Source of the DNA: Aeromicrobium stalagmiti
GTDB taxonomy: Bacteria > Actinomycetota > Actinomycetes > Propionibacteriales > Nocardioidaceae
DNA: 64,000 nucleotides
Assembly (NCBI RefSeq): GCF_013283745.1
Contig: NZ_JABSTZ010000001.1
Coordinates: forward strand, 1,382,406 to 1,446,405
Reading direction: 5' to 3'
The first letter of the stretch is position 1, and every line of letters starts with the position of its first letter. The notes below the pieces were generated by a model. The model had not been told where the DNA came from and did not search any database. It worked only from the letters and a program-made list of their open reading frames with translations. A program made the translations under genes and the position numbers. Below, piece after piece: positions 6,572 to 64,000 of the stretch.

Positions 6572-7933
6572 ATGACCACCCGCAACCCGCGGCTGCTGAG
6601 CCTGGAGCAGCTGCGCGTCCAGATCACGGAGGGGCACGTCGACACCGTCGTCGTGGCGTTCACCGACATGCAGGGCCGCCTCCAGGGCAAGCGGCTCCAC
6701 GCGGCCTACTTCCTCGACGTCGTCGTCCACCAGGGCACCGAGGGGTGCAACTACCTGCTCAGCGTCGACGTCGACATGAACACCGTCGACGGCTACGCCA
6801 TGAGCTCGTGGGAGAAGGGCTACGGCGACATGGAGTTCGCGATCGACTTCGACACGATCCGTCGCCTCGACCACCTGCCGGCCACGGTGATGGTGCAGTG
6901 CGACCTGGTGTGGCTCGACCACGCCCCGGTGGTGCAGTCGCCGCGCACGATCCTCAAGGCCCAGGTCGACAAGGCCGCTGCGGCCGGGTTCGCCGCGCTC
7001 GCCGGCACGGAGCTCGAGTTCATCCTGTTCGACACGACCTACGAGCAGGCGTGGCGCGACAACTACCAGGGGCTCCCGGCCGCCAACCAGTACAACGTCG
7101 ACTACTCGATCGTCGGCACGACCCGGGTCGAGCCGCTGCTGCGCGAGATCCGCAACACGATGTACGCCGCTGGCATGAACGTCGAGGGCGCCAAGGGCGA
7201 GTGCAACTTCGGGCAGCACGAGATCGGCTTCCTCTACGACGACGTCGTGGTGACGGCCGACAACCACGCGGTCTACAAGACCGCCGCCAAGGAGATCGCG
7301 GCGCAGCACGGCAAGGCGCTGACGTTCATGGCGAAGTACGACGAGCGGGAGGGCAACTCGTGCCACATCCACCTGTCGCTGCGCGGCACGGACGGGTCGA
7401 TCGCGTTCTGGGAGGACGGGGCCCGCTCGGCGGTCTACGACCAGTTCATCGCCGGCATCCTCGCCACGATGCGCGACTTCACGCTGCTCTACGCGCCCAA
7501 CATCAACTCCTACAAGCGCTTCGCGGACGGCTCGTTCGCGCCCACGACCGTGGCGTGGGGCCTCGACAACCGCACGTGCGCCGTGCGCCTGGTGGGCCAC
7601 GGTCCCTCGGCCCGGCTGGAGAACCGAGTCCCCGGCGGTGACACCAATCCCTACCTGTCGCTCGCGGCGATGCTGGGCGGCGGCCTGTACGGCATCGAGC
7701 ACCAGCTGGAGCTGGAGCCCGAGCAGACCGGCAACGCGTACGCGTCGGGCAAGCCCAAGGTCCCGACGACGCTGCGCGAGGCCCGCGACGCGTTCCACGG
7801 GTCCGCGATCGCGCGCGCGGTCCTCGGCGACGACGTCGTCGACCACTACACCAACATGGCCGACGTCGAGCTGAAGGCGTTCGACGCCGCCGTGACCGAC
7901 TGGGAGCTGCGCCGCGGCTTCGAGAGAATGTGA
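6572..7933 (+). CDS. Glutamine-synthetase-like gamma-glutamyl amine ligase
   Basis: Cytoplasmic ATP-dependent ligase of 453 aa, expected to join glutamate through its gamma-carboxyl to an amine. It has the N-terminal beta-grasp start FTDMQGRLQGKRL (about 31-43), the metal/glutamate segment ECNFGQHEIGF (about 210), HIHLSLRG (about 267) and the ATP/glutamate segment ENRVPGGDTNPYLSLAAML. No adenylylation loop of the housekeeping enzyme is evident. Gamma-glutamyl polyamine and ethanolamide synthetases (PuuA, GlnA3/GlnA4 types) share this form. With an aldehyde dehydrogenase, an SDR and a gamma-glutamyl hydrolase next to it, glutamylation of an amine is more likely than ammonia assimilation. GAGGA precedes the ATG by 6 bases. 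Confidence 0.85.
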   Translation: MTTRNPRLLSLEQLRVQITEGHVDTVVVAFTDMQGRLQGKRLHAAYFLDVVVHQGTEGCNYLLSVDVDMNTVDGYAMSSWEKGYGDMEFAIDFDTIRRLDHLPATVMVQCDLVWLDHAPVVQSPRTILKAQVDKAAAAGFAALAGTELEFILFDTTYEQAWRDNYQGLPAANQYNVDYSIVGTTRVEPLLREIRNTMYAAGMNVEGAKGECNFGQHEIGFLYDDVVVTADNHAVYKTAAKEIAAQHGKALTFMAKYDEREGNSCHIHLSLRGTDGSIAFWEDGARSAVYDQFIAGILATMRDFTLLYAPNINSYKRFADGSFAPTTVAWGLDNRTCAVRLVGHGPSARLENRVPGGDTNPYLSLAAMLGGGLYGIEHQLELEPEQTGNAYASGKPKVPTTLREARDAFHGSAIARAVLGDDVVDHYTNMADVELKAFDAAVTDWELRRGFERM

Positions 7934-7942
7934 GGGAGCTGG

Positions 7943-9304
7943 ATGAGCGCCACCTACACCGTCGTGAACCCCGCGACGGAGCAAGCCGTGACGGACGTCG
8001 CGATGGCCTCGCTCGCGGAGGCGGACGCCGCGATCGAGCGGGCTGCCGAGGCCTATCCGGCCTGGCGTGACACGGCCCCCGGCGAGCGAGCCCGCCTGCT
8101 GCGTCGCTTCGCCGCGGTCGTCGACGAGCACATCCCCGAGCTGGCCGAGCTCGAGGTCCGCAACTCGGGCCACACGTGGGGCAACGCGACGTGGGAGGCG
8201 GGCAACGTCCGCGACGTCCTCAACTACTACTCCGCGGCGCCGGAGCGGCTGACCGGTCATCAGATCCCCGTCGCCGGCGGCATCAACGTGACGTTCCACG
8301 AGCCGCTCGGTGTCGTCGGCATCATCGTGCCCTGGAACTTCCCGATGCCGATCGCCGGCTGGGGGTTCGGCCCGGCGCTCGCCGCCGGCAACACGGTCGT
8401 CCTGAAGCCCGCCGAGCTGACGCCGCTGACCGCGATCCGGCTCGCTGAGCTCGCCCTCGAGGCAGGCATCCCCGAGGGCGTCTTCACCGTCGTCCCGGGC
8501 AAGGGGTCCGTCGTGGGGGAGCGGTTCGTCACCCACCCGCTCGTGCGCAAGGTGTGCTTCACCGGCTCGACCGACGTGGGCAAGAAGATCATGGCCGGGT
8601 GCGCCGACCAGGTGAAGCGCGTGACGCTCGAGCTCGGCGGCAAGAGCGCCAACATCGTGTTCGCTGACGCCGACCTGGCCAAGGCCGCCGCCGCCGCCCC
8701 GTCGGCCGTGTTCGACAACGCAGGCCAGGACTGCTGCGCCCGGTCGCGCATCCTGGTGCAGCGATCGGCGTACGACGAGTTCGTCTCGCTGCTGCAGCCG
8801 GCCGTCGCCGGCGTGAAGGTCATCGACCCGTCCGACCGGTCCAGCGAGATGGGACCGCTCATCTCGGCGGCCCAGAAGGCGGCCGTCCAGGGCTTCGTCG
8901 ACGAGGTCGAGGTCGCCTTCGCAGGCGTCGCACCGCAGGGGCCCGGCTACTGGTTCGCCCCGACGGTCGTGCTCGCCGACGACCCGCAGCAGCGGATCTG
9001 GCGCGAGGAGGTCTTCGGGCCGGTCGTGGCGGTCATGCCGTTCGACGACGAGGCCCACGCGGTCGAGCTCGCCAACGACACCGAGTTCGGGCTCTCAGGC
9101 TCGATCTACACCCGTGACGTCGGCCGTGCGCTGCGCGTCTCGCGGGGCGTCGAGGCCGGCAACCTCAGCGTCAACTCGCACTCGTCGGTCCGCTACTGGA
9201 CGCCGTTCGGCGGCTTCAAGCAGTCCGGCCTCGGCCGCGAGCTGGGGCCCGACGCCCCGCACAGCTTCACCGAGGTGAAGAACGTCTTCATCAGCAACGA
9301 CTAG
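7943..9304 (+). CDS. Aldehyde dehydrogenase (NAD(P)+), PuuC-like role
   Basis: Oxidises an aldehyde to the acid with NAD(P)+; 453 aa, slightly shorter than the usual 470-500. It carries the cofactor-site motif VPWNFPMPIAGW, the general-base motif ELGGKSANIVF (about 230) and the catalytic cysteine in AGQDCCARS (about 262). The C-terminal PFGGFKQSGLGRELG stretch is typical. It starts 9 bases after the ligase gene with GAGGGAG ahead of the ATG. By position it would oxidise the aldehyde made after amine oxidation, giving a gamma-glutamyl amino acid for the hydrolase at 10196. Confidence 0.9.
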   Translation: MSATYTVVNPATEQAVTDVAMASLAEADAAIERAAEAYPAWRDTAPGERARLLRRFAAVVDEHIPELAELEVRNSGHTWGNATWEAGNVRDVLNYYSAAPERLTGHQIPVAGGINVTFHEPLGVVGIIVPWNFPMPIAGWGFGPALAAGNTVVLKPAELTPLTAIRLAELALEAGIPEGVFTVVPGKGSVVGERFVTHPLVRKVCFTGSTDVGKKIMAGCADQVKRVTLELGGKSANIVFADADLAKAAAAAPSAVFDNAGQDCCARSRILVQRSAYDEFVSLLQPAVAGVKVIDPSDRSSEMGPLISAAQKAAVQGFVDEVEVAFAGVAPQGPGYWFAPTVVLADDPQQRIWREEVFGPVVAVMPFDDEAHAVELANDTEFGLSGSIYTRDVGRALRVSRGVEAGNLSVNSHSSVRYWTPFGGFKQSGLGRELGPDAPHSFTEVKNVFISND

Positions 9305-9307
9305 TGG

Positions 9308-9396
9308 TCTCGACACACCGCTCGTTCCTCGGCGGCACTCGACCAACGAGTGCTCGCTGATCGAGTGCCCGTGAGGAACGAGCGGGTGTATCGAGA
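9308..9396. repeat. REP-like long imperfect palindrome
   Basis: The spacer between the aldehyde dehydrogenase and SDR genes is nearly all palindrome. CCGCTCGTTCCTC (9318-9330) pairs with GAGGAACGAGCGG (9373-9385), GCACTCGA (9335-9342) with TCGAGTGC (9361-9368), and the outer TCTCGACACA with GTGTATCGAGA. The tip contains CGAG-TG-CTCG. It could fold as a long hairpin in RNA between two co-directional genes. CTCGTTCCTC recurs in the spacer at 24131-24140, so it looks like a dispersed intergenic repeat. Confidence 0.75.
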
Positions 9397-9414
9397 TCAG
9401 ACAGGAGAGATCTC

Positions 9415-10182
9415 ATGGCAGGACGCATCGAGGGCAAGGTCGCCGTCGTCACCGGAGGATGCTCCGGCATCGGGCTGGCGACGGTCCGCCGGTTCGCCGA
9501 GGAGGGCGCCCAGGTCGTCATCGGCGACCTGGACGACGCCAAGGGGCCCGGCATCGCCGAGGAGGTCGGGGGCACCTACGTGCACGTCGACGTCACCGAC
9601 AAGGAGCAGGTCGACGCGCTGTTCCAGACCGCGAAGGACACCTACGGCTCGGTCGACATCGCCTTCAACAACGCCGGCATCTCGCCGCCGGAGGACGACT
9701 CGATCCTCGACACCGACCTCGAGGCGTGGAAGCGCGTGCAGGACGTCAACCTGACGAGCGTCTACCTGTGCTGCAAGGCCGCGCTGCCCTACATGCTCGA
9801 GCAGGGCAGGGGATCGATCATCAACACCGCGTCGTTCGTCGCGGTGATGGGCGCGGCGACGTCGCAGATCTCGTACTCGGCCTCCAAGGGCGGCGTGCTG
9901 AGCATGTCGCGCGAGCTGGGTGTGCAGTTCGCCCGCGAGGGCGTCCGCGTCAACGCCCTCTGCCCCGGCCCGGTCAACACCCCGCTGCTGCAGGAGCTCT
10001 TCGCGAGCGATCCCGAGCGCGCTGCGCGGCGTCTCGTGCACGTGCCGGTCGGACGCTTCGCCGAGCCCGAGGAGATGGCCAACGCGGTGCTGTTCCTCGC
10101 CTCGGACGAGTCGTCGTTCATCACGGCATCGACCTTCCTGGTGGACGGTGGCATCTCCGGGGCCTACGTCACCCCGCTGTGA
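9415..10182 (+). CDS. SDR-family dehydrogenase/reductase
   Basis: Short-chain dehydrogenase/reductase of 255 aa, classical type. It has the Rossmann motif VTGGCSGIGLATV (residues 11-23), an acidic residue after beta-2 (GDLDD) that suggests NAD(H), NNAGIS, a catalytic serine in INTASF, and YSASKGG (about 152) with the active Tyr and Lys. AGGAGAG precedes the ATG. It lies in the cluster between the aldehyde dehydrogenase and the gamma-glutamyl hydrolase and may oxidise an alcohol or hydroxy intermediate, for example from an amino alcohol. The substrate is not known. Confidence 0.9.
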   Translation: MAGRIEGKVAVVTGGCSGIGLATVRRFAEEGAQVVIGDLDDAKGPGIAEEVGGTYVHVDVTDKEQVDALFQTAKDTYGSVDIAFNNAGISPPEDDSILDTDLEAWKRVQDVNLTSVYLCCKAALPYMLEQGRGSIINTASFVAVMGAATSQISYSASKGGVLSMSRELGVQFAREGVRVNALCPGPVNTPLLQELFASDPERAARRLVHVPVGRFAEPEEMANAVLFLASDESSFITASTFLVDGGISGAYVTPL

Positions 10183-10195
10183 CGGGATGCCCGCG

Positions 10196-10885
10196 ATGAC
10201 CCGGCCCCTCATCGGCATCTCGACCTACCGCGAGCAGGCCCGGTGGGGCGTGTGGGACGAGTTCGCGGACGTCCTGCCGGCCGGCTACGCCCGCTCGATC
10301 GAGCGCGCCGGCGGGGTGCCTGTCCTGCTGCCGCCGGGCGACCCGTCCGGGGCTGCATCGATCGTGACCCGCCTCGACGGCCTGGTCATCGCGGGTGGGG
10401 CCGACGTCGACCCGGCGCGCTACGGGCAGGCGCCGCACGAGCGGACGGCTGCGTGGCGCGAGGACCGGGACGCCTGGGAGCTCGCGCTGCTCGGGGCCGC
10501 CCCGTCCGACCTGCCCGTGCTCGGCATCTGCCGGGGCATGCAGGTCATGGCGGTGCACGCCGGAGGCACGCTCGTCCAGCACGTGCCGGACGTCGTCGGG
10601 CACGAGGACCACTCGCCGGGGGGTGCGAAGTTCGGTGAGGTCGACGTCGACGTGCTGCCCGGCACCCGGCTCGCCGCAGCGATCGGCGCCAAGGGCGCGG
10701 TGCGCTGCCACCACCATCAGGCGGTGCGCGACCACCCCGGGTTCGTCCCGGCGGCCCGGGCCGCCGACGGCACGCTCGAGGCGATGGAGGACCCGTCGCA
10801 CCGGTTCCGCCTCGCGGTGCAGTGGCATCCCGAGACCCGGGACGACGCGGGCCTGTTCGCGGCCCTGGTCGCGGCGTGCGGATGA
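10196..10885 (+). CDS. Gamma-glutamyl-GABA hydrolase-like class-I amidotransferase (peptidase C26, PuuD-like)
   Basis: Cysteine hydrolase of 229 aa expected to release glutamate from a gamma-glutamyl amino acid. The N-terminus MTRPLIGISTYREQARWGVW is the family signature. The nucleophile is in GICRGMQVM (about 110), and the His-x-Glu pair is in VQWHPETR (about 207). PuuD performs the last step of the gamma-glutamyl putrescine route, and the ligase and dehydrogenases upstream fit such a route. An in-frame ATG at 10187 would add three residues. It follows the SDR stop by only a few bases, so it is in the same operon. Confidence 0.88.
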   Translation: MTRPLIGISTYREQARWGVWDEFADVLPAGYARSIERAGGVPVLLPPGDPSGAASIVTRLDGLVIAGGADVDPARYGQAPHERTAAWREDRDAWELALLGAAPSDLPVLGICRGMQVMAVHAGGTLVQHVPDVVGHEDHSPGGAKFGEVDVDVLPGTRLAAAIGAKGAVRCHHHQAVRDHPGFVPAARAADGTLEAMEDPSHRFRLAVQWHPETRDDAGLFAALVAACG

Positions 10886-10914
10886 GGGCCCTCGTCGGAT
10901 CCGCCCCGCTGGCC

Positions 10915-10920
10915 TAGGGT
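10915..10920 (+). promoter_or_regulatory. Putative -10 hexamer TAGGGT, leaderless type
   Basis: TAGGGT, then 6 bases, then the ATG of the ABC ATPase at 10927. This marks the exporter pair as a transcription unit separate from the catabolic cluster. Confidence 0.5.
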
Positions 10921-10926
10921 CGAGCC

Positions 10927-11829
10927 ATGGGGGTAGAGATCAGGGCCGAGGGTCTTGTCATGACGTACGGCGACGTGCGCGCCGTCGACGGGGTCAGCTT
11001 CACGGTGGCGCCGGGCGAGTTCTTCGGGCTCCTCGGGCCCAACGGTGCGGGCAAGACCACGACGCTCGAGATGGTCGAGGGGCTCCGCAAGCCCCAGGCC
11101 GGCTCGGTGCGCATCGACGAGCACGAGCCCTGGAAGCGGGAGCCCGCGCTGCAGCGGCGCATGGGCGTCCAGCTGCAGTCGTCGTCGTTCTTCGAGCGGC
11201 TGACGGCGCGCGAGCAGCTCGACACGTTCGGCGCTCTCTATGGCGTCGCCGCCGGACGCACCGACGAGATGCTCGAGCAGGTGGGGCTCGTCGACAAGGC
11301 CGACATCCGCACCGAGGACCTCTCCGGCGGCCAGAAGCAGCGCCTCTCGATCGCGTGCGCGTTGATCCACGATCCTGAGGTCGTGTTCCTCGACGAGCCG
11401 ACTGCGGCCCTCGACCCGCAGGCGCGGCGCAACCTCTGGGACGTCCTGCGCACGATCAACGACTCCGGGCGGACGGTCGTGCTGACGACGCACCACATGG
11501 ACGAGGCCGAGGTGCTCTGCGACCGTGTCGCGATCATGGACTCCGGCCGGATCCTGGAAATGGACACTCCCGCAGCTCTCGTGAGGGGGCTCGACGCGCC
11601 GGTGCGCATCAGTCTCGCCCCCGGCACCCTGTCGGCCGACGACGCGCGGGCAGTGGCCGGTGACGACGCCGTGGACACCGACGAGTCGGGGACGACGATC
11701 ACGACCCGTGACCCGTCGCGGGTGCTGAGCGACCTCGCCAACCGCGACGCGCTCGCGGGGCTGAGCGTCAAGGGGGCGTCGCTCGAGGACGTGTTCCTCG
11801 AGCTCACCGGACGGGAGTACCGGGCATGA
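10927..11829 (+). CDS. ABC transporter ATP-binding protein (ABC-2 exporter)
   Basis: Nucleotide-binding subunit of 300 aa for the permease encoded next. It has Walker A GPNGAGKTT (about 37-45), the signature LSGGQKQRLS (about 132), Walker B VVFLDEPTAALD (about 155) and the switch histidine in TTHHMDEAE. The C-terminal 80 residues form the extra domain typical of drug/lipid exporter ATPases of the DrrA/CcmA kind. It overlaps the permease by 4 bases. The cargo cannot be told from sequence; resistance or lipid export are common roles. Confidence 0.93.
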   Translation: MGVEIRAEGLVMTYGDVRAVDGVSFTVAPGEFFGLLGPNGAGKTTTLEMVEGLRKPQAGSVRIDEHEPWKREPALQRRMGVQLQSSSFFERLTAREQLDTFGALYGVAAGRTDEMLEQVGLVDKADIRTEDLSGGQKQRLSIACALIHDPEVVFLDEPTAALDPQARRNLWDVLRTINDSGRTVVLTTHHMDEAEVLCDRVAIMDSGRILEMDTPAALVRGLDAPVRISLAPGTLSADDARAVAGDDAVDTDESGTTITTRDPSRVLSDLANRDALAGLSVKGASLEDVFLELTGREYRA

Positions 11830-47837: not shown

Positions 47838-47939
47838 GGGAGAGTTCCCGGGTCCACGTATGGGAGTGCGTGCCGGGCGCTGAAGAGGGAGTTGCCCAGG
47901 CCGCGGCGTCAACCGCGGCGGGGCGTGAGGGAGTCACAC
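47838..47939 (+). other. Structured 5' leader of the secreted protein gene
   Basis: If transcription starts near 47837 the leader is about 100 bases. It contains GGGA-GAGT-TCCC (47838-47849) and CCGCGG-CGTCAA-CCGCGG (47901-47918), which can form hairpins. I could not match it to a known riboswitch class. Confidence 0.3.
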
Positions 47940-50225
47940 ATGTCTCGTCGTGCCGTCGGCGCCAGTGCAGCACTGGTGCTCGTCCTGTCCGGGCTGACCA
48001 TGCTCAGCACGTCGCCCGCATCAGCGGCGCCGCCCAGTCCGGAGGCGCTCGCGGTGGCCCTCGACGCCCCGGAGGACGTCACCGTCTCCGCGCCGGCGGA
48101 CCCACTGTCGTACGCCGTCGTTGATCAGCTGGTCGATCCGACGGTGGCGTTCAACGACCTCCCCTCCAAAGGTGACAGCTATGTCGTGCTCTCGACGGGT
48201 CTGGCGGCCGATGCCTTCTCGTCGAGCGTGCCCAACGACCAGCCGAGCACCGATCTCGGCGTTGCCGGGCCCGACACGACCACCCTGACGCTCGACGTCG
48301 CGCCACAGAGCGTCATGCGTTGCCTGCTGGTCGACTTCTCGATGGCGACCGAGGAGCGGGTCCACACCTACACGGCTGCCAGCCCCAGCGACTACCTCTC
48401 GGTCAAGCTCGCGGGCGACGCGACGGAGCGGGCCAGGAACCGCGGAGGTGCCTACATCAACGAGTCCGGCGTCCTGGCAGACGACGTCGACTACACGGTC
48501 AACGCCGTCAACTACTGGCACAGCCCCGGCGACTCGAGCGACCCCCTGCACGGCACGATCGAGCAGCCCCGCCTGCCCGCGGGCGCCACGCCCTTCGACT
48601 ACTTCACGACCCGCGACACCGCGGAGGTGCCGATCTCCGCGGCAGGTGGCACCGTCACCGTGACGATCGCCGACGCCAACAACGGCAGGCTCGACTCCGC
48701 AGCACTGGTCGACAGCGTGCGGCTCACGCAGGCCTGCTCGTTCGACGTCAGCGCCGACACCGGGATCTCGACCGGCAAGGCCCGCATCGACGGCTACCGC
48801 GGCGTCGGCAACACCCTCACCCTCGATCCCGACCGGTCGACCGAGGACGTCGTCGAGAAGTACGACGACCCGTCCAACGGCTGGTTCGCCCAGCCCGTCG
48901 AGCTGCGGTTCCGCTGGTACCGCAACAAGATGCCCTACACCAGTGACTGCTACAAGACGAGCCTCGCCAACTGGACAGCGATCCCTGATGCCGACCGGCA
49001 GTCGTACGTGCCGACCAACGTCGACAAGAACTACTGCCTGATGGCGCGCGTGACCGGCGTCAAGGACGGCTATCGCAGCGAGACCTTCCCCCAGTCGGCC
49101 TCGCCCGACCAGTGGTACGTGACACTGCCGATCCAGGACGGCGCGTTCACCGCGGAGGAGCCGACCGTGACGGGCGCCTTCGAGGTCGGCGGCGACGTGA
49201 CGGTGCAGGTTCCGTCATTCACGCCGCGACCGGACTCCCACTCGATCCAGTGGTACGCCGGCACCAGCCAGATCTCCGGTGCGACCGGCCAGGTGCTGCG
49301 GCTCACTGCGTCCGAGGCGGGCAAGATCATCAGCGTCAAGGTCACCGCCAAGCGCAGCGGCTTCGCCGATGCCACCAAGACCAGCCCGCAGTACGGCCCG
49401 GTGCTGCTGCAGGAGATGACGTCGGCCGACACGCCGACCATCTCCGGCACCACCGCCGTCGGGGCCACGCTGACGGCGCTGCCGGGCACGTGGAGCCCGG
49501 TGCCCGACAAGTTCACCTATCAGTGGAAGCGCGACGGAGAGGTGATCGGCAGCTCCATCACCTCGACCTACACGACCAAGACGACCGACGTCGGCCGGCG
49601 GATCTCCGTCGAGGTGACCGGCGCGAAGTCGGGCTACTTCCCGCTGACCAGGACGAGCGACCCCGTGATGATCGGCGAGGGCGGGATGGGCGGCCTTGAC
49701 CCGACGATCAAGGGCACCCCGACCGTGGGGGAGCAGCTCACCGCCAGCACGACCGGGTGGTCGCCGGTCGGAGCCAGCTTCACCTATCAGTGGAAGGTGG
49801 ACGGCGTGGCGGCCTCCAAGGGCACCAGCCGCCTCTTCACGATTCCCGGGACGGCCGCCGGCAAGAAGATCACCGTGACGGTCTCGGGTGAGCTGGCCGG
49901 CTACACCACGACGTCGCGCACGACGGCGCCGACGGCGGCCGTGGCCAAGGGCAGGATCACGACCACCTCGCCCGGCATCAGCGGGCGGACGAAGGTCGGG
50001 TACACGGTGTCGGTGCGCACGCTCGGCTGGAGCCCGTACGACGTCAGGAAGACCTATCGCTGGATGCTCGACGGCAAGTTCTACGGCGGCTCGACGAGCC
50101 GGTCGACGTTCAAGCTGCCGAAGTCGGCGCGCGGCAAGCGCGTCAGCGTCCGGGTGACCGGCACCCTGACGGGCTACACGACGGCGGTCCGCACCAGTCC
50201 CAAGACGAGCAGGGTCTCGAAGTAG
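47940..50225 (+). CDS. Secreted protein with C-terminal Ig-like repeats
   Basis: Exported protein of 761 aa. A Sec signal peptide covers residues 1-30 (RAVGASAALVLVLSGLTMLS, ending ASAA). Residues about 40-275 form a unique region of mixed beta pattern. A cysteine-containing divergent repeat follows, then four repeats of about 85-90 residues at roughly 406-487, 496-578, 585-668 and 674-761. Each has a VGxTLT-type opening, a WSP turn, YQW and a GKxIxVxVTxxxxGY end. No LPXTG or anchor is seen, so it is probably secreted or loosely wall-bound. GAGGGAG precedes the ATG. Confidence 0.82.
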   Translation: MSRRAVGASAALVLVLSGLTMLSTSPASAAPPSPEALAVALDAPEDVTVSAPADPLSYAVVDQLVDPTVAFNDLPSKGDSYVVLSTGLAADAFSSSVPNDQPSTDLGVAGPDTTTLTLDVAPQSVMRCLLVDFSMATEERVHTYTAASPSDYLSVKLAGDATERARNRGGAYINESGVLADDVDYTVNAVNYWHSPGDSSDPLHGTIEQPRLPAGATPFDYFTTRDTAEVPISAAGGTVTVTIADANNGRLDSAALVDSVRLTQACSFDVSADTGISTGKARIDGYRGVGNTLTLDPDRSTEDVVEKYDDPSNGWFAQPVELRFRWYRNKMPYTSDCYKTSLANWTAIPDADRQSYVPTNVDKNYCLMARVTGVKDGYRSETFPQSASPDQWYVTLPIQDGAFTAEEPTVTGAFEVGGDVTVQVPSFTPRPDSHSIQWYAGTSQISGATGQVLRLTASEAGKIISVKVTAKRSGFADATKTSPQYGPVLLQEMTSADTPTISGTTAVGATLTALPGTWSPVPDKFTYQWKRDGEVIGSSITSTYTTKTTDVGRRISVEVTGAKSGYFPLTRTSDPVMIGEGGMGGLDPTIKGTPTVGEQLTASTTGWSPVGASFTYQWKVDGVAASKGTSRLFTIPGTAAGKKITVTVSGELAGYTTTSRTTAPTAAVAKGRITTTSPGISGRTKVGYTVSVRTLGWSPYDVRKTYRWMLDGKFYGGSTSRSTFKLPKSARGKRVSVRVTGTLTGYTTAVRTSPKTSRVSK

Positions 50226-59200: not shown

Positions 59201-59584
59201 ATGCGCGCCTACCTGGACGACACCTATCTGGAGGGCTACCTCCCGGTCGGCGTCATCATCCTGGTGGGCATCGGCCTCGCCGCCGCGATGCTCGGTGTCA
59301 ACCGGCTGATGCGCCCGCAGGTCGCGTCGCGCGAGAAGGCGACGACCTACGAGTCGGGTGTCGACCCGGTCGGCGACGGCTGGTCGCAGTCGACGGTCCG
59401 CTACTACGTCTACGCGTTCCTCTACGTGATCTTCGCGGTCGACGCGGTGTTCCTGTTCCCGTGGGCGGTCGTGCTGGAGGAGATCGGTGCCGCCGCCGCG
59501 GTCGAGATGGGCATCTTCATCGGCATCCTCGTGGTGGGCCTCGCCTACGCCTGGCGCAAGGGGGTCCTGTCGTGGACGTCGTAG
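59201..59584 (+). CDS. nuoA: NADH-quinone oxidoreductase subunit A, second copy
   Basis: Three-helix membrane subunit of 127 aa. [20 protein letters not shown] (about 46) has the conserved loop, and [18 protein letters not shown] the second helix. It differs clearly from NuoA1. First gene of a second, reduced nuo cluster, with a leaderless-type start. It overlaps nuoB2 by 13 bases. Confidence 0.92.
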
Positions 59585-60156
59585 GCGCCGTCGACCTGCC
59601 CATGCCCACCGTCGCACCGTCGACGCTCGGCGTCGGGTCGCAGGTCGCGCCCAAGCCGGCCCGCTACCTGCTCAACTGGGGCCGCAAGTACTCCCTCTGG
59701 GTCTTCAACTTCGGCCTCGCCTGCTGCGCGATCGAGTTCATCGCGACGTCGATGTCGCGCCACGACTTCATCCGCCTCGGCGTCATCCCGTTCGCTCCGG
59801 GCCCGCGCCAGGCCGACCTCATGGTGGTCTCCGGCACGGTGACCGACAAGATGGCGCCGGCCATCAAGCGTCTCTACGACCAGATGCCCGAGCCGAAGTA
59901 CGTCATCAGCTTCGGCTCGTGCGCCAACTCCGGCGGTCCCTACTGGGACTCCTACTCCGTCACCAAGGGCGTCGACCAGATCATCCCCGTCGACGTCTAC
60001 GTGCCGGGCTGCCCGCCGCGCCCCGAGGCGCTGCTCAACGGCATCGTCACGTTGCAGGACAAGATCGCGGGCGAGAACCTCTCCGAGCGCTACTCCCGGT
60101 CCACCACGTCGCTGCTGTCGCCGCGCGTCGTGGCGCCCCCGGCGGTCGATCAGTGA
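59572..60156 (+). CDS. nuoB: NADH-quinone oxidoreductase subunit B, second copy
   Basis: N2-cluster subunit of 194 aa. [13 protein letters not shown] (about 45), [14 protein letters not shown] (about 115) and PGCPPRPEA (about 144) keep all cluster cysteines, so the protein should carry the 4Fe-4S centre. The GTG start at 59572 is preceded by AAGGGGG; an ATG at 59602 is an alternative. It overlaps nuoC2 by 4 bases. Confidence 0.92.
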
Positions 60157-60674
60157 CGATCGAGGCCAACGCCTTCGGCCCGCCCCACCGCGTCGTCGAG
60201 GTCGAGGGCTGGCACGACGCCGTCGCCGGGCTCAAGCGTGATGGCTACACCTACTTCGACTGGCTGTCGGCGGTCGACGAGCACCCCGACGGGTTCCGGC
60301 TGGTCGTGCACCTGGCCCGTCTCGAGCCGGCGCTCGACCACCTGTTGCTGGTGACCTATCTCGACCGCGAGGCGCCGAGCGTCGCCTCGATCGCCGACGT
60401 CTTTGCCGGAGCGGCGTGGCACGAGCGCGAGACCCACGAGATGTTCGGCATCTCGTTCGGCGTCGACCTCGAACCGCTGCTGCTGCCCGACGGGTTCGAG
60501 GGGCATCCGCTGCGCAAGGAGTTCGTCCTCGCCTCCCGCGTCGCCAAGCCGTGGCCGGGTGCGAAGGAGCCCGGCGAGAGCGACTCCGACTCGTCGCACT
60601 CGCCGAGCCGGCGCCGGGTCAAGCCGCCGGGCGTCCCCGACGACTGGGTGCAGGAGCGAGGCGTCGATGGGTGA
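60153..60674 (+). CDS. nuoC: NADH-quinone oxidoreductase subunit C, second copy
   Basis: Peripheral subunit of 173 aa, shorter than NuoC1 (249). [20 protein letters not shown] (about 90) and [15 protein letters not shown] match the NuoC signature. The C-terminal tail is charged ([15 protein letters not shown]). Its stop overlaps the nuoH2 start by 8 bases, so no nuoD can lie between. NuoD would normally bind this protein. Confidence 0.88.
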
Positions 60675-61635
60675 GCTGCTCGACGCCGTCCTGCGGTGCC
60701 TGATCGTCCTCGGTGCGTTCCTGACGCTGCCGCTGCTGGTGGGCCAGATGGAGCACAAGGCGATGGCGCACATGCAGAGCCGGGTCGGGCCGATGGCCGC
60801 CGGCGGTTTTCACGGGTGGGCTCAGCTGGTCGCCGACGGCATCAAGTTCGTGCAGAAGGAGAGCATCACGCCGGCTGCGGCGGACCGTCGCGTGTTCGAG
60901 CTCGCTCCGGCCGTCGCCCTCGTGCCCTACCTCGTCGCGATGCTCGCGATCCCGCTCGGACCGTTCTTCGGCCAGACCAACCTCATCGGTCAGGACCTCG
61001 ACCTCGGACTGTTCTTCGTCCTCGCGGCCATGAGCGTCGGCGTGCTCGGCACCCTCATGGGTGGTCTCGGCAGCGGCAACAAGTACTCCTACATCGGCGG
61101 CATGCGGGTCGCCGCGCAGCTCATGTCGTACGAGCTGCCGATGGTGCTGGCCGCGGCGAGCGTCGCGATGGCCGCCGGCACGCTCTCGCTGGTCGGCATC
61201 GCCCAGGAGTGGGAGCCGTGGTGGCTGCTGACCCAGCTGCCCGGGCTCGTGGTGTTCTTCGTCGCCGGGCTGGCCGAGCTGCAGCGGCCCCCGTTCGACG
61301 CCCCGCTGGCCGACGCCGAGCTCGTGATGGGTCCGTTGACCGAGTACGGCGGCATGCGCTTCGCGATGTTCCTGCTGGCGGAGTACGCCGGCATCGTCGT
61401 CCTCGCGGCCCTGACGACGGTGCTGTTCCTCGGCGGGTGGGCCGGTCCGTGGTCCGACCACCTGGGCTGGGTGTGGTCGCTGCTGAAGATCGTGGCAGTC
61501 TCGTTCCTCGTGATCTGGGCGCGCGTGGCATATCCCCGCCTGCGCGAGGACCAGGTCAACGCGCTGGCGTGGAAGGTGCTGGTGCCGGTCGCGCTGGCGC
61601 AGGTCACCCTGACGACGGTGCTGGTGGTCGCATGA
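60667..61635 (+). CDS. nuoH: NADH-quinone oxidoreductase subunit H, second copy
   Basis: Quinone-tunnel membrane subunit of 322 aa, without the long tail of NuoH1. [20 protein letters not shown] (about 33) and [18 protein letters not shown] (about 207) match NuoH, with some departures from the NuoH1 loop ([14 protein letters not shown] becomes [14 protein letters not shown]). About eight helices. It overlaps nuoI2 by 4 bases. Confidence 0.92.
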
Positions 61636-62186
61636 GCGGGTCGTTCTGGGGCAAGGGCCTGCTGCAGGGACTCGCCGTCACGTGGCGCAACCTGACCCAC
61701 CGCAGCGTCACGGCGCACTATCCCGACGTCGAGCCCGACCTGCCACCGCGCAGCCGCGGCGTCATCGCCCTGCAGGAGGAGAATTGCACGTCCTGCATGC
61801 TGTGCGCCCGCGAGTGCCCGTCGTGGTGCATCACGATCGACTCCCACAAGGAGGTCATCCCGGCCGCGACCGAGGGCGGACGTGACCGCAGCCAGAACGT
61901 CCTCGACCAGTTCGACATCGACTACTCGATCTGCATGTACTGCTCGATCTGCATCGAGGTGTGCCCCTTCGACGCCCTGCACTGGTCGCCGGAGTTCGCC
62001 TATGCCGAGGGCGACCTCAAGGACCTCACGCACGACATGAACCGCCTGCGCACGTGGATGGACACGGTCCCGCCGCCGCAGCCGCTCGACCCCGGTGCGG
62101 AGCAGGGCAAGGAGCTCGACTCCTACCGTGCCTCGCAGGCAGCCGAGGCGGCCGAGGCGGCCCAGCCGGCCGAGGAGGAGTCGTGA
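61632..62186 (+). CDS. nuoI: NADH-quinone oxidoreductase subunit I, second copy
   Basis: Ferredoxin-like subunit of 184 aa. Both 4Fe-4S motifs are complete: [16 protein letters not shown] (about 53) and [16 protein letters not shown] (about 102). The C-terminus ends in an Ala/Glu-rich tail. Electrons could reach NuoB2 from here, but a NADH-oxidising module is absent from this cluster. Confidence 0.92.
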
Positions 62187-62683
62187 CCCTCACCGAGATC
62201 GTGTTCCTCGTCTTCGCGGTCATCGCCGTCGGCTCGGCCCTGCTGTCGATGACGAGCGGCCAGCTCGTCCACGCCGCGCTCTGGCTGGTCGTGACCCTCG
62301 GGGCCGTGGCCGGCTGCTTCGTGCTGATGACCGCCGAGTTCGTCGCGTGGGTGCAGGTGCTCGTCTACGTCGGCTCGGTCGTCGTGCTCGTGATCTTCGC
62401 CCTGATGCTGACCCGCCAGCCGAGCGGTGCCCGGTCGGCCGAGGTCACGGGCAACCGTTGGGTGGCCGCGGTGCTGGGCGCCGCGGCAGCGATCGGGCTC
62501 GGCGCGACCATGGTGGCCGGTTTCGGCGGCGAGCAGATCGAGGGGCGCCGCATCGGCACCGCCGGGTCGATCGGCGACGCCCTCTTCAACGACTGGGTCC
62601 TCCCGTTCGAGATCCTCAGCGGCGTGCTGCTCGCCGCGCTGATCGGCGCCATCGTCATCTCGCGATCAGGGTCCGATCGCTGA
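62183..62683 (+). CDS. nuoJ: NADH-quinone oxidoreductase subunit J, second copy
   Basis: Membrane subunit of 166 aa, five helices, shorter than NuoJ1 because the soluble tail is missing. [20 protein letters not shown] (about 53) is the conserved helix. GTG start preceded by GAGGAGG and overlapping nuoI2. Confidence 0.91.
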
Positions 62684-62979
62684 TGCCGCTGCTCTATCCG
62701 CTGGTGCTGGCGTCCGCCCTCTTCGGCATCGGGCTCTACGGCGTCCTGGCCCGGCGCAACGCCGTCATGATGCTGCTCGGGGTCGAGCTGATGCTCAACG
62801 CCGTCAACCTCAACCTGGTCGCGTTCGACGCGTGGTTCGCCGACGTCGTGCACTCGGGGCAGGTGCTCACGCTGTTCACGATCACCCTCGCGGCCGCCGA
62901 GATCGGTCTCGGGCTGGCGATCATCCTGGCGCTGTTCCGTGCGCTGCGGACGGTCGACGTCGACGAGGTGGGCCGATGA
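62683..62979 (+). CDS. nuoK: NADH-quinone oxidoreductase subunit K, second copy
   Basis: MrpC-like subunit of 98 aa. The two conserved glutamates lie in [18 protein letters not shown] (about 31-48) and [16 protein letters not shown] (about 69-84). The start ATG shares a base with the nuoJ2 stop (TGATG). It overlaps nuoL2 by 4 bases. Confidence 0.91.
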
Positions 62980-64000
62980 GCCGCCGCTGGATCTATGTCG
63001 CCCTGACGGCGGCGCTCGCGACAGCCGCGTCGATCTGGGCGGTCCCGCGCCTGGACGAGCCGGGATGGTTCGCGTACGTCGGTCAGGGCGGCGCGGGGGA
63101 CGGCCCGCCGCTGCCGTCCCTGTCGCCCGACCTGTTCCTCTATCCGGTCAGCGCCCAGGTCGTGCTGCTCGCGGTCGGCGTCGGCCTGCTGGTGCAGATC
63201 TACTCGACCGCCTATCTGGGTCACCACCCGCGCTACCGGTCCTACGCCCTGATCATCATTCTGTTCCTCGTCGGCATGATCGCCGTCGTCGGCACGACCA
63301 ACCTCTGGGTGCTGCTCGTGGGCTGGGAGGTCATGGGGCTGTGCTCCTACCTGCTGATCGGCCACGAGTGGCAGACGGCTGAGGCGCGCGCCGGCGCCGC
63401 GAAGGCGTTCCTCGTCACCCGCGTCGCCGACCTGGGCCTCCTGCTCGCGATCCTGGTGATCGGCGAGACCTACGGGACGTACGACATCGTGGGCGCGCAG
63501 ATCGCCTCGTCGCAGGACGGTGTGGCGAGCTCGACGGCGATCGGTCTGCTCGTCCTCGTGGCTGTCGTCGGCAAGTCGGCGCAGTTCCCGCTGCAGACCT
63601 GGCTGCCCGACGCGATGCCCGGTCCGACGCCCATCACGGCGCTGATCCACGCCGCGACGATGGTCGCTGCCGGGGTCTATCTGGCCGCCCGCCTCTTCCC
63701 GTTCTACGCCGACTCGACCGTCGTGCTCACCGCCATGGCGGTCGTCGCCGGCATCACGATGCTGATGGGCGCGCTGTTCGCGCTGGTGCAGACCGACCTC
63801 AAGCGAGCACTGGCCTGGTCGACCGTCAGCCAGCTGGCGTTCATGTTCGCCGCGATCGCAGCCGGCGACCCCGAGGCGGGCACCGACCACCTGATCTCGC
63901 ACGGCGTGTTCAAGGCCCTGCTGTTCCTGGGCTGCGGCTGCCTCATGCATGCCGTCGGCTCGAGCGCTCTCGCGGCGATGGGCGGTCTTCGCCGGTCGAT
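62976..64000 (+). CDS. nuoL: NADH-quinone oxidoreductase subunit L, second copy (3' partial)
   Basis: Antiporter-like subunit; the frame is open to the window end, so 341 residues are visible. It starts [20 protein letters not shown]. The key glutamate is in [20 protein letters not shown] (about 113), and [20 protein letters not shown] (about 210) and [18 protein letters not shown] (about 306) carry the other channel residues. nuoM2 and nuoN2 probably follow beyond the window. Confidence 0.92.

Follow-up and report, generated by a model that had tools for sequence, protein, structure and literature searches.

A second set of complex I (nuo) genes, here called nuo2, lies at the end of the 64,000-nucleotide stretch of the Aeromicrobium stalagmiti genome analysed in this study (hereafter the window; contig NZ_JABSTZ010000001.1, positions 1,382,406 to 1,446,405). 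A previous sequence-only reading of the window held that the resulting complex is missing NuoD, the subunit of the quinone pocket. This view is overturned by a complete second NuoD (NuoD2), belonging to a clade of its own, that is encoded 1.05 Mb away. We consider it probable that Nuo2 is an 11-subunit complex I (A through D and H through N) specified at two loci, a ten-gene operon and an orphan nuoD2 residing beside a gene of the MidA family, and we include in this proposal the electron path and the arginine methylation described below. Judged by gene content and orthology, the oddity of the cluster is that of a split 11-subunit complex I, a system known in outline from Streptomyces.

The nuo2 operon and its detached D subunit

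All reading frames from nuoA2 to nuoL2 are open and reside on the forward strand. The first gene, nuoA2 (59201..59584), encodes a protein with 34% identity to NuoA1, and is followed by nuoB2 (59602..60156), whose product exceeds the cut-offs of both NF005012 and TIGR01957 and retains four cysteine ligands (Cys 41, 42, 107 and 137). Next are nuoC2 (60153..60674; PF00329), nuoH2 (60667..61635; placed by a NuoH tree) and nuoI2 (61632..62186), the last of these encoding two complete 4Fe-4S motifs of the form CxxCxxCxxxC. The series continues with nuoJ2 (62183..62683; 32% identity to NuoJ1 over 124 amino acids), nuoK2 (62683..62979; 45% identity to NuoK1) and nuoL2 (62976..64697), which crosses the end of the window at position 64000. 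Beyond this point, in window numbering, the operon extends through nuoM2 (64694-66121) and nuoN2 (66118-67521), and ends at a convergent PF04461 gene that we take to be yajQ. The full operon therefore comprises ten genes (A2-B2-C2-H2-I2-J2-K2-L2-M2-N2). Six of the seven junctions within the window are overlaps, of 4, 8, 4, 4, 1 and 4 bases in order, with exactly 8 bases shared by nuoC2 and nuoH2, whereas nuoA2 and nuoB2 are separated by a 17-base gap.

These data bear out the gene order, the overlaps at nearly every junction and the intact iron-sulfur ligands of NuoB2 and NuoI2 described in the sequence-only reading. The absence of nuoD, nuoE, nuoF and nuoG from the cluster likewise extends to its nuoM2-nuoN2 continuation, although the rest of the genome was not searched for a further E/F/G set. 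The possibility that a distal nuoD might follow position 64000 in the same operon was not borne out: neither a whole-genome PF00346 search nor inspection of the downstream genes revealed a nuoD in the operon or directly past the end of the window.

The same PF00346 search returned three matches, corresponding to nuoD1 of the 14-subunit complex and to two pieces of a single distant gene, nuoD2 (G000:C1:394316-395458, equivalent to L005:9317-10459). Thus, the genome search for a third nuoD proposed earlier did uncover an extra gene, but it is the second rather than the third. nuoD2 lies outside the window, about 1.05 Mb from the nuo2 operon, and encodes a complete protein of 380 amino acids that scores above the NF004739 NuoD cut-off and below that of TIGR01962. 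Its start overlaps a preceding polysaccharide-pyruvyl-transferase-like gene (L005:7851-9320) by 4 bases, and a DUF885 gene (L005:10488-12140) follows it. Two genes upstream of nuoD2 resides a MidA-family gene (L005:6919-7848), whose product exceeds the PF02636 (Methyltransf_28) cut-off.

That NuoD2 belongs to Nuo2 is indicated by deep lineages of the Actinomycetota, where the homologous operon has the order A-B-C-D-H-I-J-K-L-M-N and carries the NuoD2 orthologue between C and H. Named loci with this arrangement include those of Acidimicrobiia, Ilumatobacter, Actinomarina and others, and the operon is often located directly behind the 14-subunit cluster. In a tree of 74 NuoD sequences, orphan and in-operon NuoD2s form one group apart from NuoD1 and from 25 other NuoDs of 11- and 14-subunit complexes, with a support value of 100 (Shimodaira-Hasegawa-like approximate likelihood ratio test) that covers the 38 NuoD2s in the tree. 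The NuoH tree recovers the same main clades. Both are quick trees, in which the row for family f18 (L075) and those for family f2 form long branches. Because the orthologue occupies the C-H slot of the homologous operon, sequence comparison shows NuoD2 to be the D subunit of this particular nuo2 operon, moved to another site, and thus part of an 11-subunit complex I. By the same reasoning, the genome holds a single orthologous set of all 11 subunits (A-D and H-N), formed by the ten-gene operon plus nuoD2, which agrees with the likeness to complexes lacking EFG that had been noted from the window.

Gene distributions among this genome and its relatives are consistent with the same assignment. 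Of 39 genomes, 21 carry a nuoC2-like gene together with an additional NuoD2-like one, and the other 18 lack both; within the genus, the corresponding numbers are 8 and 17 of 25. Three of the 21 NuoD2s (G025, G028 and G038) are strongly diverged, but the tree still places them beside the NuoD2s of the class.

On the NuoD tree, orphan nuoD2 genes arise at three separate positions (a minimum of 3 changes): in the class of the window, in family f19 together with a metagenome-assembled genome (L118), and in family f18, which forms a long branch. The operon itself lacks D in f18, f19 and the class (11 loci, L197-L207). Therefore, the detached nuoD2 is an old and probably repeated state. Some nuo2 clusters of the class are also gapped (L203, L204 and L205), indicating a loosening of the operon in places: in L203, A2 lies 7 kb from B2, and in L204 gaps of 2.8 kb and 1.7 kb separate B2 from C2 and H2 from I2, respectively. 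Another irregular locus, L086 (G029; 7211-11076), carries two opposite-strand genes between B2-C2 and nuoH2 that by eye resemble an NAD-epimerase and a PIN-domain protein; nuoI2 to nuoK2 were not seen within this locus, and N2 is about 14 kb from H2.

The MidA-family neighbour and the HRG arginine

At each place of detachment, nuoD2 is mostly found near a gene of the MidA/NDUFAF7 family. A single-sequence search of the PDB with the MidA-family protein of this genome yields only weak matches, and profiles were needed to establish the relationship: a profile of 12 MidA neighbours matches PDB 5ztz ('Protein arginine methyltransferase NDUFAF7 homolog') with an E value of 2e-32, and a class-only profile of eight matches the same entry at 1e-8. 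No NCBIfam family is matched above its cut-off by the MidA-family protein. Among the relatives, a PF02636 gene is present in 19 of 21 genomes with nuo2 (missing from G028 and G038) and in none of the 18 without it; within the genus, the split is 8/8 versus 0/17. All 19 genomes with both genes carry MidA on the same contig as nuoD2, at a distance of 0.2-6 kb.

A similar linkage is observed more broadly. Among same-class genomes with nuoD2, MidA resides on the same contig 0.2-7 kb away in 22 of 23, and tblastn locates it in the remaining genome. Eleven of these have D2, MidA and H2 on one contig, where MidA and D2 are 0.9-7.6 kb apart, measured start to start, versus 143-1051 kb for MidA and H2; in the other 12, the three genes are on different contigs or H2 is absent. 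Of 31 named loci from the class, 29 include MidA, the misses being L094 (a 3.1-kb contig) and L117 (Glycomyces). In families f18 and f19, MidA lies 0.6-6.9 kb from the orphan nuoD2 in six of seven genomes and on another contig in the seventh (G092). Where deep lineages retain nuoD in place, nine of 15 named loci have MidA after nuoN2. Of the six remaining contigs, five stop short of nuoN2, and L121 carries no MidA behind that gene. The two genes share a contig in 34 of the 49 deep genomes that carry both, and reside on different contigs in 15.

A 298-genome sample of the phylum gave 71 genomes with both nuoD2 and MidA, 25 with nuoD2 only, 12 with MidA only and 190 with neither, a count for which 23 of 121 matched genomes with scores below 320 bits were set aside as another clade using the analyst's own, non-curated cut. 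Also left out of the D2 clade were two genomes with scores of at least 343 bits, G218, whose NuoD carries a tyrosine at the quinone-ligand position and falls outside the clade, and G290, which shares the family code of G218 and scores similarly. Nine deep genomes carry MidA and have no NuoD2 match at E<=1e-80 (G075, G110, G188, G201, G223, G286, G298, G318 and G322).

NDUFAF7 symmetrically dimethylates the arginine of the HRG motif in NDUFS2, the NuoD homologue, beside iron-sulfur cluster N2 (PMC3829151, PMC8042128), and this methylation is needed for complex I assembly in humans (PMC3829151). Among other NuoD homologues, the residue is modified in Paracoccus, is present and unmodified in E. 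coli, and is replaced by threonine in Thermus (PMC3750175). In an ungapped alignment, His29, Arg55 and Trp78 of NuoD2 correspond to positions 38, 64 and 87 of Thermus Nqo4. The HRG arginine is Arg55, which is found in all 38 aligned NuoD2s, whereas all eight NuoD1s carry threonine. NuoD1 of this genome (32851..34194, forward strand) thus resembles Thermus Nqo4 at this position, and NuoD2 is the only one of the two NuoDs in this organism that could be modified there. The arginine also occurs in 25 of 25 NuoDs from other clades, a count biased in part by the search patterns, and the unusual residue is therefore the threonine of NuoD1. The named loci were found with the patterns GPQHP[AS]TH and GYMHRGxEK, and their counts for His29 and Arg55 are therefore partly selected as well, whereas Trp78 is part of neither pattern.

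A tryptophan at the quinone-ligand position and the path of electrons

Position 87 of Nqo4 is, as we take it, the tyrosine numbered 144 in Yarrowia. The quinone head group is bound by this NuoD tyrosine, which a review terms strictly conserved (PMC8119997); it is treated as a conserved quinone ligand and proton donor both there and in a recent simulation paper (PMC12890310). Tryptophan occupies this position in all 101 distinct NuoD2 sequences (110 loci, picked by the analyst as NuoD2-type after the first sequences had been read; the clade support covers the 38 in the tree). In contrast, tyrosine is present in all 33 aligned NuoD1s and other-clade NuoDs, including four from Bacillota among the 25 other-clade sequences. 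The change from tyrosine to tryptophan occurs once on the NuoD tree. A scan of alignment columns in NuoB, NuoD, NuoH and NuoI, in which some genomes are represented twice in the NuoB, NuoH and NuoI sets, identified this column as the only strict switch between NuoD2-type complexes and others (95% on both sides). Looser limits (90/80%) add NuoD column 53, NuoB column 103 and NuoH columns 61 and 298. Bacillota and the other-clade Actinomycetota with a tyrosine-bearing NuoD use menaquinone, so the use of this quinone alone should not explain the tryptophan. Because Trp78 replaces the head-group tyrosine of 11-subunit complex I, Nuo2 is better described as a variant of this enzyme than as a plain member.

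Other features of the pocket are retained. His25, His29 and Gly30 of the quinone loop are invariant in the 38 aligned NuoD2s, and His29 is lost in three genomes of family f2 (G025, G028 and G038), which encode only B-C-I and a far-off D, have neither H2 nor N2, and carry a POR-domain gene directly beside B. Their NuoD2s keep the tryptophan. In these genomes, the membrane arm and the quinone histidine have been lost together, which suggests a use of quinone by Nuo2 complexes that are complete. The reduced B-C-I plus D sets (L077, L079 and L081, with L076, L078 and L080) are perhaps soluble electron-transfer modules serving KOR.

We propose a model in which NuoD2 would assemble with NuoB2, NuoC2, NuoI2 and NuoH2 to yield a proton-pumping oxidoreductase. 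Low-potential electrons would enter at NuoI2, probably from ferredoxin, which might in turn be reduced by a 2-oxoacid:ferredoxin oxidoreductase of the PorABG type, and would be passed to menaquinone in a pocket with Trp78 at the position of the usual tyrosine. The neighbouring methyltransferase is predicted to symmetrically dimethylate Arg55 of NuoD2, next to cluster N2. Ferredoxin is our best guess for the donor on the basis of gene content; for 11-subunit enzymes in general, the donor is described as unresolved (PMC11238625). The genome encodes a three-gene 2-oxoacid:ferredoxin oxidoreductase (PorB-PorA-PorG, L208:7028-9832), whose PorA best matches an archaeal pyruvate synthase model at a score below its cut-off. 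PF01558 falls in frames of 625-634 amino acids, a length matching a fused KorA, in just three of the eight nuo2-bearing genomes of the genus, while the genome studied here has the separate three-gene set. A POR-domain (PF01558) gene is located 0.5-18 kb from nuoC2 in 13 of 13 nuo2-bearing genomes from the remaining families of the order, L077 being the one locus whose KOR type was verified by Pfam. However, the nuo2-lacking G033 also has a PF01558 gene, and the nuo1 and nuo2 clusters of these families are close neighbours, so this linkage is weak evidence. One genome carries KorA 4.6 kb from nuoA2, and its family code is that of a NuoD2 that groups with Streptomyces.

Several observations weigh against this proposal or parts of it. 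Our Fisher tests on co-occurrence ignore shared descent, and five of the 18 genomes without nuo2 are less than 90% complete. A PF02636 match is absent from 25 of 96 genomes with D2, one of which (G248) has a tblastn match; G248 aside, Arg55 is kept in all 11 NuoD2s read from such genomes. Given that the arginine persists without MidA, and that the E. coli arginine is unmethylated (PMC3750175), methylation is not obligatory. PF01558 matches are missing from four genomes with nuo2 (G003, G008, G012 and G013) and present in four without it (G002, G006, G009 and G033), such that a single donor is not supported. The first four genomes led us to reject KOR as an obligatory donor in the genus. A role as F420H2 dehydrogenase (Fpo) was also rejected, since the genome has no PF04432 match to indicate an input subunit of the FpoF/FrhB type.

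The alternative that survives best, although we consider it unlikely, is that Nuo2 does not carry out the usual quinone reduction, and instead serves another acceptor or runs in reverse, using the proton-motive force and menaquinol to supply reduced ferredoxin for aerobic metabolism. The uniform exchange of tyrosine for tryptophan would fit this alternative, as would the presence of a tyrosine-bearing NuoD1 in the same genome and the POR-domain genes near nuoC2 in other families of the order. The invariant quinone-loop residues argue otherwise, since His29 is lost in the f2 genomes, which also lack H2 and N2, and this argues that the other complexes still bind quinone. Both this argument and the main proposal are weakened by G093 (L051, L039), a genome of the class that has nuoD2 and MidA and keeps His29 without an H2 match at E<=1e-70. 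It might be a second instance in which D stands alone with no membrane arm, or the arm may have diverged.

Competing assignments, known systems and implications

It had also been suggested that Nuo2 borrows NuoD1 of the 14-subunit complex, in which case NuoD2 would serve elsewhere. nuoD1 is encoded 25 kb upstream of the nuo2 cluster, and a swap of L2 and M2 into the main complex has been suggested in the literature (PMC3765725, PMC8388888). However, NuoD2 falls in a different clade from NuoD1 and its orthologues fill the D slot of the same operon in deeper Actinomycetota; nuoD2 is missing from all 18 relatives without the cluster, even though each has a NuoD1-type match; and identity between the two complexes in this genome is only 29-51% for the NuoB, C, D, H and I subunits. 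We therefore consider borrowing very improbable, and the need for it disappears if NuoD2 is the relocated subunit.

That Nuo2 is a proton/ion module with no redox function or a decaying remnant, as a cluster viewed alone without D and an NADH module might suggest, is scarcely credible given the intact ligands of NuoB2 and NuoI2, the ratios of nonsynonymous to synonymous substitution rates (dN/dS) measured in comparison with a single genome of the genus, G012 (ten cluster genes, 0.08-0.26; nuoD2, 0.07), published RNA data from Streptomyces that suggest a single operon (PMC3765725), and the retention of H2 and N2 in 8/8 nuo2-bearing genomes of the genus and 10/13 in other families of the order. 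These low ratios indicate that the nuo2 genes and nuoD2 are not decaying; the ratio for MidA (0.31) reflects weaker constraint. The sequence-only reading had named as its refutation a recent deletion with decaying genes in a cluster whose homologues carry nuoD. Deeper homologous clusters do carry nuoD, but the cluster examined here shows neither a recent deletion nor decay.

Streptomyces resembles this genome in having a second nuo operon without EFG and a detached nuoD2 elsewhere on the chromosome (PMC3765725, PMC8388888). Unlike the operon described here, the two published gene lists omit nuoC2, and the portions of these papers available to us make no mention of a MidA neighbour, of tryptophan at the quinone-ligand position, or of an in-operon ancestor. 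The nuoABCDHIJKLMN operon of Desulfitobacterium specifies the same 11 subunits and no NADH module, but retains D inside the operon (PMC11238625); its NuoD is not among the 25 aligned tyrosine-bearing sequences of other clades. Compared with Thermus Nqo4, NuoD2 has arginine in place of threonine and tryptophan in place of tyrosine. The likeness to the action of NDUFAF7/MidA on NDUFS2 (PMC3829151, PMC3750175, PMC8042128) consists of a family-level match (PF02636 and PDB 5ztz) plus the HRG arginine of NuoD2, and methylation in this organism is putative. Linkage of such a gene to a bacterial nuoD is the new element. Our literature search, conducted mostly at the level of records rather than full texts, found no published link between midA and nuoD2 and no report of tryptophan at the NuoD tyrosine, and the part of PMC4893023 available to us holds nothing on this site. 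Thus, the features we did not find in print are the fixed exchange of the quinone-ligand tyrosine for tryptophan, the recurrent association of nuoD2 and midA, and the three places of detachment.

Elsewhere in the window, after the nuo1 region, a frame of 777 amino acids (47892-50225) gives no Pfam match at E 0.001; inspected by eye, it begins with a signal-like segment and contains repeated domains.

Our broader interpretation is more tentative, and we regard it as possible rather than probable: a widespread complex I of the Actinomycetota might operate with a tryptophan in its pocket and without the supposedly essential tyrosine, its NuoD might be matured by a dedicated, adjacent MidA, and nuoD and midA might stay together or rejoin at each exit from the operon. 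The clade, which includes Streptomyces, has the tryptophan in every sequence read, and in this organism it occurs beside a tyrosine-bearing complex I, which amounts to a natural experiment on the coupling mechanism. Likewise, the midA-nuoD2 neighbourhood offers a bacterial genetic system for arginine methylation, with a NuoD that has the arginine and one that lacks it in the same cell. If the tryptophan pocket and the dedicated MidA are both real, pocket chemistry and pumping would be separated in this enzyme, which may work in the direction of ferredoxin instead of drawing electrons from it.

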